Below are positions 1,297 to 5,080 of a stretch of 6,192 bases of DNA, piece by piece. The DNA is from Candidatus Eiseniibacteriota bacterium (GTDB lineage: Bacteria; Arandabacterota; Arandabacteria; JAGLYR01): contig JAGLYR010000278.1 of NCBI GenBank assembly GCA_023132135.1, forward strand, positions 1 through 6,192, written 5' to 3'. Made by a program: the position numbers and the translations under genes. A model generated the notes under the pieces. The model was given only the letters and a program-made list of their open reading frames with translations, was not told the DNA's origin and made no database searches. How positions within the stretch are numbered: position 1 is the stretch's first letter; the number at the start of each line of letters is the position of its first letter.

Positions 1297-2352
1297 GTGT
1301 CCTTTGATCCTCTGTGTCTGGCCGCCGCCGTCGGGAGCTTCCCTCATAAGAATGCGGAAGAGGCGCTGGATCTAATCTTCCAACGCTTTCCAGAGATTCC
1401 GGTGTGGCCCCAGCTGCCCCGCTTGGGATTCCGCGAGAACATGTATGTGCAGTTCAGCGAGAAGCTCCCGTGTGCCGTGCTGGACGAGAGTGCGGGGTGC
1501 CTCCACTTCGATACCGGCGGCGACATCTACGGACCACTGGAGTCGTTTTTCGAGCGAGTAGTACTGGAGGATGTGGATTTCTTCGAAACTGCACAACCCT
1601 TCGCCGCGGGCTTCCATGCTTTCATTGATCGGTTGACCAGGGAGAAACCGGAAACCGTGCGGTGTGTCAAGGGACAGGTCACCGGTCCCATCAGCTTCGG
1701 GCTCACGATTACGGATCAGGGCAAACGCGCCATCATGTACCACCCGGAGTTATACGAGGCGATTCTCAAGGGGTGCGTGATGAGCGCCCGGTGGCAGGTC
1801 CGGAAGCTCAAGACCGTCCATCCGCAGGTTCTCATCTTCATGGACGAACCCTACCTGAGCGCGTTTGGATCTGCTTTCATTAACCTGTCCCGCGAGCAGG
1901 TCGTCTCGAATCTGAGCGAGCTCGCCGAGGGGATCCACCAGGAAGGCGGTCTCGTGGGGATCCACTGCTGCGGGAACACCGACTGGTCTATCCTGATGGA
2001 CGTGCCCATCGATGTGTTGAACTTCGATGCCTACGAGTTTTTCCAGGGTCTCACCCTGTACCCTGAGTCCCTGGCGCGGTTTGTGGATCGTGGTGGCACG
2101 CTGGCGTGGGGAATTGTCCCGTCGAGCGATGCGGCGGAGGGAGAGTCCGTGGATTCGCTGCGGGCCCGGTTCGGGGAGGGCCTGGAACTGCTGGCGGGGA
2201 AGGGGATCGACCGGGACAGGCTTGTCCGGCAATGCCTGATCACACCCAGTTGCGGAATGGGGGGGCGCACCGTTGAACTCGCTAAGCGAATCACGATGCT
2301 CACGGCCGAGCTTGCCGCCTCCCTGCGCGAGAAACATGCCCTGTATCGGTGA
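1297..2352 (+). CDS. Core (folate-independent) methionine synthase-like protein, MetE/UroD superfamily
   Basis: This 351-residue protein resembles the C-terminal catalytic half of cobalamin-independent methionine synthase and lacks the MetE N-terminal half. The N-terminus has VGSFPHKNAEEAL (12-24), then IPVWPQLPR and ENMYVQFSEKLP (about 34-58), typical of short MetE-like proteins in anaerobes. A full zinc site can be proposed: His223 and Cys225 (GIHCCGN), Glu247 (22 residues after Cys225, the same spacing as in E. coli MetE) and Cys319 (PSCGMGG). Zinc in this superfamily activates homocysteine thiol for methylation. Short 'core-MetE' or MesB enzymes are known from anaerobes with Wood-Ljungdahl genes and take the methyl group from a corrinoid protein rather than methyl-folate. 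The position upstream of cooC and acsB fits that role. The GTG start is supported by AAGGAG at 1285-1290. Alternatives are another zinc methyltransferase of the UroD/MtaA type. Superfamily certain, substrate inferred. Confidence 0.75.
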   Translation: MSFDPLCLAAAVGSFPHKNAEEALDLIFQRFPEIPVWPQLPRLGFRENMYVQFSEKLPCAVLDESAGCLHFDTGGDIYGPLESFFERVVLEDVDFFETAQPFAAGFHAFIDRLTREKPETVRCVKGQVTGPISFGLTITDQGKRAIMYHPELYEAILKGCVMSARWQVRKLKTVHPQVLIFMDEPYLSAFGSAFINLSREQVVSNLSELAEGIHQEGGLVGIHCCGNTDWSILMDVPIDVLNFDAYEFFQGLTLYPESLARFVDRGGTLAWGIVPSSDAAEGESVDSLRARFGEGLELLAGKGIDRDRLVRQCLITPSCGMGGRTVELAKRITMLTAELAASLREKHALYR

Positions 2353-2404: not shown

Positions 2405-2439
2405 GGACTACGAACTAGGGACTACGGACTAGGGACTGT
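2405..2439 (+). repeat. 7-bp tandem repeat array (GGACTAS type)
   Basis: Five consecutive heptamers are visible: GGACTAC, GAACTAG, GGACTAC, GGACTAG and GGACTGT. The array ends 18 bp before the TTG start at 2458, so it would lie in the leader of the CooC-like gene. The unit differs from those of the other arrays in the window but shares the 7-bp period and the leading GGA. It contains no clear promoter hexamers. Confidence 0.75.
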
Positions 2440-2457: not shown

Positions 2458-3234
2458 TTGGCAATCGGCAGAGGAACCGTCACCGCTATAGTCGGAAAGG
2501 GAGGGACGGGCAAGACCACCCTGTCGGGGCTTCTGGTCCGCCGTCTTCTCGCCGATGGCCTGGGGCCGGTGCTGGCGGTGGATGCGGATCCGGCGCAGGG
2601 CTTCGGAAAGATTCTGGGAGTGGAGCCCACGGAGACGCTGGGAGAAATCAGGGAAGGTCTTCTGCGACCCGGGAACCAGATTCCCGCGGGCGTCGCCAAA
2701 AAGGGCTACCTGGACCTCCGCGTGCAATCGTCCATTGTCGAGGCCTCGGGTTTTGACCTTCTGACCATGGGGCGACCCGAGGGGCCGGGCTGCTACTGTT
2801 TTGTCAACAACCTCCTCCGGGACTCGCTGGATTCGCTGGTGGGCAACTACCCCTGGGTCGTGATCGATTGTGAGGCGGGGATGGAGCATCTCTCCCGCAG
2901 GACGGCCAAGGATGTGGACTACCTGTTCGTTGTGTGCAACGGCTCGCTGGCATCTGTGCAAACGGCGAGCCGGATACTGGATCTGATAGAGGACCTGCGA
3001 ACGAAGGCGGCACACAGGATTCTCATCCTGAACAACTTGGCGGGCGACACGGATGAAGTCGTGGAATCGCTCCTGGATCGCATTGATGCCGCCAGATTCG
3101 ACACATCGGGTGTAATCCCATACAATCAGCAGGTGAGTATGATGGAGCGGGAGGGTCAATCGATCCTGGATCTTCCGGACGAGAGCCCGGTGTCTCTGGC
3201 GCTGGAGCACGTGTTGGGAAAGATCCGGGGGTAG
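2458..3234 (+). CDS. cooC: CooC/AcsF-type nickel-insertion ATPase
   Basis: This 258-residue cytoplasmic ATPase belongs to the MinD/SIMIBI class that loads nickel into carbon monoxide dehydrogenase (CooC) or acetyl-CoA synthase (AcsF). A deviant Walker A, GKGGTGKTT, lies at 13-21 with the signature Lys14. DADP (42-45) is the switch I region. Cys112-Tyr-Cys114 (GPGCYCFVNN) is the CxC motif that binds metal between the two subunits of the CooC dimer. DCEAGMEHLSRRT begins at Asp137 (Walker B/switch II). All key residues are present, so the protein should be active. The TTG start is supported by GAGAGG at 2445-2450, seven bases upstream; no ATG gives the conserved N-terminus. The gene lies 41 bp before the CODH homologue and is probably co-transcribed with it and acsB. 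Because that CODH homologue has lost most nickel-site ligands, the A-cluster of AcsB is the likelier client, so AcsF may be the better name. Confidence 0.9.
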   Translation: MAIGRGTVTAIVGKGGTGKTTLSGLLVRRLLADGLGPVLAVDADPAQGFGKILGVEPTETLGEIREGLLRPGNQIPAGVAKKGYLDLRVQSSIVEASGFDLLTMGRPEGPGCYCFVNNLLRDSLDSLVGNYPWVVIDCEAGMEHLSRRTAKDVDYLFVVCNGSLASVQTASRILDLIEDLRTKAAHRILILNNLAGDTDEVVESLLDRIDAARFDTSGVIPYNQQVSMMEREGQSILDLPDESPVSLALEHVLGKIRG

Positions 3235-3275: not shown

Positions 3276-4952
3276 ATGGATGAGTGCAATTTGGCCCGGG
3301 CGGTGGCGCGGGGAGCGGCGGCGCGCGCAGATCACGCGCGGGCGCTCGCGCAGGCCCTGCTCAAGGTGGCCCGTGACAGGGATGGGGAATGTGTTCTCGG
3401 CAATGAGGAGCGCATCCGGCGGCTTGCGGTGGAGATGGGGATTTCCGCCGAGGGTGCAGTGGCCGAGGTCGCAGAGGGTGTTGCCCGGGCGGTGATGTCG
3501 GAGTTCGAGCGGAAGGATGGAGAGCTCGTTTCAGCCTGCCGGGCCCCCGAGAATCGGCAGAAGGTCTGGCGAAATGCCGGTGTTTTTCCGCGCGGTGTCG
3601 ACCTGGATATTCGGGATGTCCTCGACAGCACCGGGAAGAAAGCCGGCGACGCGAGGGATTTCCTGTGGGATGTGGTCCGCTGCGCTCTGGCGGATGGGTG
3701 GGGTGGATCGATGCTTGCCGGCGACATCTCGGGGGTTCTCTTCTCGCCGCTGTGGCCCGCGAGAGTGCGGATGGACTTGGGCGTGCTCAAGGAAAGCAAT
3801 GTCAATATTGTGATCCACGGACACGAGCCGGGTTTCGTCGAGACAGTCGTCCGGATCGCGGCAGAGCCCGACATGTTGGGCCGGGCAAAGATCGCTGGCG
3901 CGCAGGGGATAGCGGTGATCGCCACCGATGGCATCTCGAACGAGGCACTCATCCGCGACGGCCTGCCGGTGACCGGCAATTTGCTGCAACAGGAATTGTT
4001 GGTGGCCACCGGTGCAGTGGATCTGTTGGCAGTGGATGAGCGGTGCGCTCTTCCGGATCTCCAGGTTGCAACGCGCTGCTGCCACACTCGGCTGGTGGCG
4101 GTTTCTTCCGGGAGCGGTGCGTCGGGGCCGTGCTGGGCGCCGTCCTGGGAAACGTTTGATAGCGGTTCATCTCGTGAGCTCATCGCCGGCGCGATTGGGA
4201 ACTTCGGGGCGCGGGATCAGTCCCGGGTCGAGATCCCAAATGGGGAAACGGGGCTCATCGGAGGCTTTACGGCAGAGAGCCTGTCCCATCACTTCGGCGG
4301 CCGGTTCCGCGGGGGCTTCCGGCTGTTGAACGATGCCGTTGCCGCCGGACGGATTCGAGGCATCGCGGCACTGATGAGCAGCAACCTGATGGAGAGAACC
4401 TTGGCTGAGGGCATTCTCTCGGCAGTGACCGGTCTTCTGTCGAAAGACGTGCTGGTCGTACAGACGGGGCCTGCCCTGATCACGTGCGCCGCAGCGGGGC
4501 TCCTGAGACCCGAAGCTGCCTCGGAGTTCGCCGGGGACGGTCTTCGCGAGGTCTGTGAGATGGTGGGAATCCCGCCGGTCCTGCATATGGGTTCGTGTGC
4601 CGGCCACTCGGAAGTTCTCCTGAGCTTTGCCGGAATGGTGATGGAAGGAGGAGTCGGAAAAGATCTCTCGCAACTGCCTGTTGCGGCGGTCATGCCGGAA
4701 GTGATGAGCGACGATGCGGCGCCAATCGCTGTCTCGGCTGCCGCGTCCGGTGTGCCGGTCATCGCTGTCTCGTTACCGGGAGAGGAATCCCGGAAAACGA
4801 TGGATTTCCTGTCTCGGGAGATGCCGGATGCCCTTGGAGGGACGGTTGCGTTTGTGGGCGATCCCGGGGAGGCCGTCTCCCTTGTTCTGGAGCATCTTGA
4901 CGAGCGCCGGAGCGCCCTCAATCTCAAACCGAGCCGGGAAGCTGCGGGTTAG
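3276..4952 (+). CDS. cooS: Divergent, N-terminally short carbon monoxide dehydrogenase catalytic subunit homologue with a degenerate active site
   Basis: This 558-residue protein is clearly homologous to Ni-CODH (CooS/AcsA): GAAARADHAR (13-22), VNIVIHGHEP (176-185), GNLLQQEL (234-241), VDERCALP (253-260), GGFTAES (329-335) and PPVLHMGSC (433-441). Compared with remembered C. hydrogenoformans CODH-II numbering, the first ~75 residues with the D-cluster (Cys39, 47) and B-cluster (Cys48, 51, 56, 70) ligands are absent. Retained C-cluster ligands are His261 (here His183), Cys333 (Cys257) and Cys526 (Cys441). Lost are Cys295 (Gly219), Cys446 (Ser369) and Cys476 (Pro399). Catalytic Lys563 is Asp480 and His93 is Arg17; Asp219 is kept (Asp140). 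The frame is intact and motifs are preserved, so it is probably a working gene rather than a decayed one. An in-frame TAA at 3261-3263 rules out a longer N-terminus. GAGGCGG (3265-3271) is the likely ribosome site. It cannot be a standard CO dehydrogenase; a partner or scaffold of AcsB is one possibility. Homology is firm, function unknown. Confidence 0.88.
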   Translation: MDECNLARAVARGAAARADHARALAQALLKVARDRDGECVLGNEERIRRLAVEMGISAEGAVAEVAEGVARAVMSEFERKDGELVSACRAPENRQKVWRNAGVFPRGVDLDIRDVLDSTGKKAGDARDFLWDVVRCALADGWGGSMLAGDISGVLFSPLWPARVRMDLGVLKESNVNIVIHGHEPGFVETVVRIAAEPDMLGRAKIAGAQGIAVIATDGISNEALIRDGLPVTGNLLQQELLVATGAVDLLAVDERCALPDLQVATRCCHTRLVAVSSGSGASGPCWAPSWETFDSGSSRELIAGAIGNFGARDQSRVEIPNGETGLIGGFTAESLSHHFGGRFRGGFRLLNDAVAAGRIRGIAALMSSNLMERTLAEGILSAVTGLLSKDVLVVQTGPALITCAAAGLLRPEAASEFAGDGLREVCEMVGIPPVLHMGSCAGHSEVLLSFAGMVMEGGVGKDLSQLPVAAVMPEVMSDDAAPIAVSAAASGVPVIAVSLPGEESRKTMDFLSREMPDALGGTVAFVGDPGEAVSLVLEHLDERRSALNLKPSREAAG

Positions 4953-5028: not shown

Positions 5029-5056
5029 GGAAATAGGAAATCGGAAATAGGAAATA
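5029..5056 (+). repeat. 7-bp tandem repeat array (GGAAATA type)
   Basis: Four tandem heptamers, GGAAATA, GGAAATC, GGAAATA, GGAAATA, lie in the 128-bp spacer before acsB and are followed by the related GGGCGAA. The array ends 24 bp before the acsB ATG. Its AT-rich make-up stands out from the GC-rich surroundings. The rest of the spacer (4953-5028) shows no convincing promoter or terminator; a weak GGCCGG-AAG-CCGGTT fold is present at 4971-4985. Confidence 0.8.
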
Positions 5057-5080
5057 GGGCGAATACACGGGGGACGCTGG

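Follow-up and report, generated by a model that had tools for sequence, protein, structure and literature searches.

A CO dehydrogenase homologue without its catalytic residues in an acetyl-CoA synthase operon

We describe an acs operon in which the gene directly beside acsB, the position of a CO dehydrogenase/acetyl-CoA synthase (CODH/ACS) subunit, encodes a homologue of the AcsA/CooS-type Ni-CODHs that has lost half of its C-cluster ligands, both acid-base residues and its N-terminal D/B-cluster domain. Judging by its residues, this pseudo-CODH would almost certainly be incapable of normal CO/CO2 catalysis. We favor, at a probability of roughly 0.6, the reading that it acts as a non-catalytic, structural or conformational subunit of ACS. 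The window analyzed is a stretch of 6,192 nucleotides, the whole of contig C199 of a 3.4-Mb MAG (G000; 345 contigs, 96% complete). The main finding concerns this one MAG of one species, from a phylum sampled by eight species. CODH/ACS lies at the heart of the carbon fixation pathway that has been proposed as the oldest. Genome annotation reads a CODH gene as evidence of CO/CO2 chemistry, yet the product of the gene described here, though it passes as CODH, would be unable to carry it out.

Residues and domains of the CODH homologue

The pseudo-CODH reading frame is uninterrupted, with zero internal stops (Table 1). Its product falls in the Prismane/CODH family (Pfam, 250 bits) and resembles the C. 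autoethanogenum CODH (6ytt/9fzy) with an E value of 6e-95 (phmmer). Its best NCBIfam match is to the Ni-CODH family TIGR01702 (E 3.6e-98; 329 bits, below the curated cutoff of 478) and not to TIGR01703, which places it outside the hybrid-cluster family; by sequence family and fold it belongs with the Ni-CODHs. A preliminary description made from the sequence had stated that the CODH fold motifs are kept, and indeed the HGHEP and HMGSC segments are common to this protein and AcsA/CooS-type CODHs.

Residue columns were set by a phmmer alignment and by MAFFT alignments with about 80 CODHs, using CODH-II numbering. A Ni-CODH is expected to have six C-cluster ligands, one His and five Cys. Three are kept (His183, Cys257 and Cys441), and no cysteine stands in the columns of the other three, which hold Gly219, Ser369 and Pro399. 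Two of the three cysteines that hold the Fe-S part are thereby replaced, by Ser and Pro. Both acid-base residues are replaced as well, His93 by Arg17 and Lys563 by Asp480. The preliminary description had named these five substitutions and listed the same three residues as the sole ligands left; the alignments agree with it on every one. Its expectation that a normal NiFe4S4 C-cluster cannot form is strongly supported by the ligand columns.

Table 1. Features of the window, with residue columns given in CODH-II numbering
Feature	Position	Strand	Length or basis
MesB-like core methionine synthase	1297..2352	+	weak PRK00957 match; Zn-ligand pattern His223, Cys225, Asp244, Cys319
AcsF/CooC-type nickel-insertion ATPase, GPGCYC type not CooC1 type	2458..3234	+	67 bits to CooC1 3KJE
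Pseudo-CODH, AcsA/CooS-type CO dehydrogenase homologue without N-terminal D/B-cluster domain	3276..4952	+	558 aa
Arg17 codon, column of catalytic His93	3324..3326	+	alignment
His183 codon, ligand His261, retained	3822..3824	+	alignment
Gly219 codon, column of ligand Cys295; Asp218 at preceding Cys	3930..3932	+	alignment
Cys257 codon, ligand Cys333, retained	4044..4046	+	alignment
Ser369 codon, column of ligand Cys446	4380..4382	+	alignment
Pro399 codon, column of ligand Cys476	4470..4472	+	alignment
Cys441 codon, ligand Cys526, retained	4596..4598	+	alignment
Asp480 codon, column of catalytic Lys563	4713..4715	+	alignment
acsB, acetyl-CoA synthase, N-terminal 370 aa	5081..6190	+	leaves contig; rest on G000:C200 (L019:1-1011)

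A second loss goes beyond the residues listed in the preliminary description. The protein starts at CODH position ~77–80 and so lacks the N-terminal ~80 residues, which carry the cysteines of the D- and B-clusters. A search of all six frames for a D/B-cluster Cys motif was negative, so we rejected the idea that the domain is encoded in another frame. Because the motif is absent and the DNA 5′ of the gene is taken up to position 3234 by the AcsF/CooC-type ATPase gene, the missing domain is not hidden upstream.

These losses bear on the idea of an altered but active enzyme, catalyzing CO/CO2 or other redox chemistry with an unusual cluster. There is precedent for this within the fold: other clusters, bound by ligands that partly differ, occur in clade-D CODHs and in hybrid cluster proteins (PMC6344411). 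However, the pseudo-CODH has neither a B- nor a D-cluster for electron transfer, and with the cluster-holding cysteines and acid-base residues replaced as described, we regard such an activity as very improbable.

Operon and genome context

Contigs C199 and C200 appear to adjoin, based on homology and contig numbering; C200 begins within acsB, about 23 codons past the end of C199. Joined, they give the gene order mesB-like / acsF-like / pseudo-CODH / acsB / acsD / acsC / acsV. The A-cluster ligands of AcsB are complete (CX2CX8CX9C plus CGC), and the ACS is probably still catalytic. The corrinoid activator AcsV and CFeSP (AcsCD) are retained alongside ACS and the MesB-like synthase. The Zn ligands of the latter are spaced +2, +21, +96, compared to +2, +21, +97 in MesB of Dehalococcoides (PMC7857596). 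Upstream of the operon, on the opposite strand (123-1076), lies a gene for a 317-aa protein with no Pfam, NCBIfam or PDB sequence match. Purine-rich short repeats (GGACTAC, GGAAATA and GCGAGAGGG units) are found between operon genes, at window positions 2405-2437, 5029-5058, about 27-112, and 2357, and a repeat of the GCGAGAGGG kind also forms a low-complexity insert in the reading frame of acsV (L019:4009-4050).

Protein and Pfam searches of the MAG found no CODH other than the pseudo-CODH; the one further member of the Prismane family encoded there is a hybrid cluster protein. MTHFR was not found genome-wide. Searches for AcsE and MetH in the genome returned a single Pterin_bind protein, which reads as FolP by sequence motif, and hence neither enzyme was found in G000. 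The gene set is thus of the Dehalococcoides type: an ACS with its A-cluster ligands, CFeSP and a MesB-like protein, with no MTHFR, AcsE or MetH.

Genes tied to CODH maturation and electron transfer are missing too. Relatives with intact CODHs have two nickel ATPases, one CooC1-like (158 bits to 3KJE) and one of GPGCYC type, and the window has only the latter. In a genome search of G000 for a CooC1-type ATPase, the sole match was the AcsF-like protein itself (33%); G003, which has an intact CODH, carries a 49% copy, and the type is also present in G068. We infer from this pattern, together with the CooC1 similarity, that the GPGCYC type would serve ACS (AcsF) and the other type CODH. In the closest complete operon (L055/L090), genes for a CooF-like ferredoxin and an FAD-NAD oxidoreductase lie between CODH and acsB. 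Here both are absent, and the gap between pseudo-CODH and acsB is 128 bases. All functions specific to CODH catalysis seem to have been lost together.

Given a MAG of 345 contigs and a contig that ends within acsB, one could ask whether the substitutions are assembly errors, or whether a true CODH sits in the missing ~4% of the genome or was lost in binning. Several independent replacements and a clean 5′ end in an open frame are unlike sequencing errors, however; the losses extend beyond the active site to the CooC1 maturase and the CooF/oxidoreductase partners; and neither the protein nor the Pfam search turned up a second CODH. An artefact of this kind is highly unlikely.

Constraint on the gene, and other broken CODHs

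To place the pseudo-CODH among its relatives, we surveyed 386 genomes, mostly from different families, by profile search, which gave CODH matches in 57 (a few of which reflect contig ends or weak similarity of other proteins), and added 80 AcsB-selected loci from named MAGs. One short match, in G002, was set aside because it is short only through a contig end. Where the columns could be assigned, the intact catalytic set HHCCCCCK was present in 79 CODHs (a few loci entering twice) and the clade-D-like set YHECCCCK in 8. The clade-D-like pattern, in which Tyr takes the column of His93 and Glu that of Cys295, is seen at L032, L033 and L034 (G006, G005 and G001, respectively), from the class of the window genome. 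Three CODHs in the survey are broken: that of the window and those at L023 and L039.

The preliminary description had proposed building a CODH tree to see whether close relatives share the substitutions; among the operons nearest by AcsB, none does. The five operons with AcsB nearest to the window's (68–70%, full length), from LCP-89, Calditrichota and two other MAG loci, all have intact CODHs. In the AcsB tree the window groups with the LCP-89, Calditrichota and two MAG operons (SH-aLRT 99), and the CODH tree is compatible with this grouping (AU p 0.54), less so with a grouping with G003/G006 (p 0.08). We had considered an orthologous operon in sister families of the same phylum, and dropped the idea when AcsB of G003 and G006 was placed elsewhere in the tree. 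These two phylum relatives, whose CODH is intact, likewise have no MTHFR and one pterin-binding protein each, a sign that the methyl branch can be lost while CODH is retained. Their CODH could oxidize CO, which in the window organism would have to be released.

Single-protein scans of genome and viral contig collections found no close relative of the pseudo-CODH itself, and hence we relied on the conservation gradient, codon usage and an expected-nonsense count in place of dN/dS. Trees of CODH and of AcsB were compared for the same 56 operons. The window has the longest CODH branch of all, 1.57 changes per site against a median of 0.15; for AcsB, its branch measures 0.31, against a median of 0.13. 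The pseudo-CODH has thus changed at about 5 times the rate of the ACS encoded beside it. Near-invariant sites (≥97% in intact CODHs) are retained in 54 of 71 cases. The 17 losses lean toward the ligand neighborhood (Fisher p 0.002–0.04), a tendency that weakens to p about 0.1 without the ligand columns themselves.

A branch about 10 times the median also fits slow decay, that is, a gene on its way out, which has drifted since CODH activity became unneeded and is so far unbroken, with no present role. The 17 lost near-invariant sites, the loss of the N-terminal domain and partner genes, and the existence of a related Auribacterota operon without any CODH all favor this idea. On the other hand, the excess of amino-acid changes in the pseudo-CODH, estimated from the CODH and AcsB branch lengths, is roughly 660; under neutrality, about 20 nonsense changes should have accompanied them in the 558-codon frame, and none is observed. 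Codon usage matches that of the operon (RSCU r 0.81) and GC3 is normal. Change depends strongly on site conservation, with the consensus residue present in the window at 68–69% of sites that are ≥90% conserved versus 8–20% of the most variable sites. The CODH fold is predicted at high confidence by AF2 (pLDDT 88.4, pTM 0.90), with TM values of 0.90–0.92 to solved CODHs, including those in CODH/ACS complexes, and a dead CODH has been retained independently in another phylum (see below). These data make it likely that the pseudo-CODH is maintained by selection, and we consider decay without a role to be unlikely.

The independent case is L023:5478-6647 (G042:C88). It encodes a CODH homologue of 389 aa, dead like the pseudo-CODH and placed between acsD and acsB in the ACS operon of another small phylum, with the A-cluster signature of the operon's AcsB intact. 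It is also predicted to fold (pLDDT 79, pTM 0.82, TM about 0.8 to CODHs). It differs in that the middle domain is deleted and zero cluster ligands remain. The AcsB of this operon is nearest to that of L024 (65%, versus 50% to the window's), where the CODH is intact, indicating that the losses in L023 and the window are independent. The metabolic setting differs as well, since G042 keeps MTHFR and an AcsE-like gene. The other broken CODH, L039:1570-3423 (G226:C49), has its D/B-cluster cysteines intact, but its C-cluster is broken, with the columns reading Arg, Asp, gap, Cys, Ser, Glu, Ser and Lys. Its neighbors are ferredoxin-like and NADH-oxidase-like genes. We rejected it as an instance of the same case because the N-terminal cysteines are kept and the locus has no ACS.

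In CODH-II, His261 and Cys526 flank the Ni/Fe1 side of the cluster. Retention of the corresponding His183 and Cys441, and of Cys257, though three other ligands are lost, raises the prospect of a repurposed metalloprotein, in which the three would hold a mononuclear metal (e.g. Ni for the A-cluster) or a small Fe-S site; the nickel ATPase retained in the operon points the same way. No new Cys/His motif appears in the protein, however, a CODH-type maturase was not found, and L023 has been retained in the same kind of operon without any ligand. We therefore view a new metal site as improbable, more so than decay. The preliminary description had proposed a repurposed protein, either a pseudo-enzyme or one with a different metal center. 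Its first half is favored by the intact frame, fold, codon usage, selection gradient and operon retention; its second half fares poorly, the three kept ligands notwithstanding.

Possible role beside ACS, and known systems

In solved complexes, the N-terminal part of AcsB is the part that contacts CODH. The ratio of N-domain to C-domain divergence is 1.22 ± 0.09 in CODH-linked ACS, 1.37 in the window and 1.47 in L023, compared to 1.71 in the Auribacterota mesB-acsB operon without CODH and 2.1–2.4 in Omnitrophota ACS without CODH nearby (essentially one clade, with CODH judged by locus). The values of the window and L023 thus lie close to those of CODH-linked ACS. The Omnitrophota loci include L105, L109, L110, L121, L124-L126 and L130-L132; in the two inspected, L105 and L110, an MTHFR-like gene lies upstream. 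Among CODH sites specific to ACS-linked enzymes, the window keeps 20 of 26 (77%), versus 106 of 160 other conserved sites (66%), a small difference. The ratio and these sites are indirect signs that the dead CODH may still meet ACS.

If the pseudo-CODH is a structural subunit, the system might work as follows. ACS would cleave acetyl-CoA, yielding CoA, CO and a methyl group that would pass to CFeSP and then, via MesB, to homocysteine, giving methionine as proposed for Dehalococcoides. CO would be a by-product that can no longer be oxidized here and would leave. The dead CODH would dock on the N-terminal domain of ACS, which it would stabilize or keep in a given conformation, and it may provide the way out for CO. 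One caveat here is that ACS is active without CODH in some organisms, which, together with an Auribacterota operon that has no CODH, implies that such a scaffold is not universally needed. In that operon (L091:3487-6917), mesB is followed directly by acsB, acsD and acsC, with no CODH at the locus, and it looks like an end point of CODH loss.

More tentatively, and with somewhat less than even odds, dead CODHs may constitute a recurrent class of non-catalytic ACS subunit, reached at least twice, in which the clusters, maturase and redox partners are lost and the structural or CO-venting half is kept after acetyl-CoA cleavage has been repurposed for methyl supply. Such forms would be intermediate between full CODH/ACS and the CODH-less ACS of the Dehalococcoides type, and the pseudo-CODH would mark a stage on the way from a carbon-fixing complex to a methyl-supply system. 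If the pseudo-CODH still binds ACS, then the structural role of the CODH subunit would have been separated from its catalytic role in nature, and the system would serve as a natural experiment on whether the body of CODH is required by ACS for stability, conformational change or a CO tunnel.

Compared with the AcsA/CooS-type Ni-CODHs of C. autoethanogenum (6YTT), M. thermoacetica (1OAO) and C. hydrogenoformans (7ZKJ), the pseudo-CODH has the same fold and acsB-adjacent position, 29–34% identity, and HGHEP, HMGSC and His261/Cys333/Cys526 in common. Unlike them, it has no D/B domain, its Cys295/446/476 and His93/Lys563 are replaced, and it is accompanied by neither CooC1 nor CooF. Incomplete sets of C-cluster and acid-base residues have been described before in bacterial CODH homologues from ACS clusters, namely groups A-4 and A-6 of the Cdh-type clade A (Inoue et al. 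2019, PMC6344411), and in the open-access literature we found nothing closer on dead CODHs in ACS operons. In A-4 and A-6, only the His and Cys1 (plus acid/base residues) are changed, Cys2–Cys5 are kept and the E/F clusters are largely kept, whereas the pseudo-CODH is of the CooS/AcsA type and has lost cubane cysteines themselves. That survey (PMC6344411) filtered out any sequence in which part of a D-, B- or C-cluster region was deleted. Incomplete ACS-adjacent CODHs of the Cdh clade are therefore already known, and what is new here is a CODH of the CooS/AcsA type that lacks two of the cubane cysteines as well as the N-terminal domain.

The metabolic parallel is with Dehalococcoides mccartyi, whose incomplete Wood-Ljungdahl pathway comprises AcsB, AcsCD and MesB/core-MetE and lacks CODH, AcsE, MetF and MetH (PMC7005905, PMC7857596). 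In that organism, methionine has been proposed to be made with the methyl group of acetyl-CoA, with release of CO (PMC7005905). The window genome has kept and lost the same genes, except that a dead CODH is kept here, where Dehalococcoides has none.
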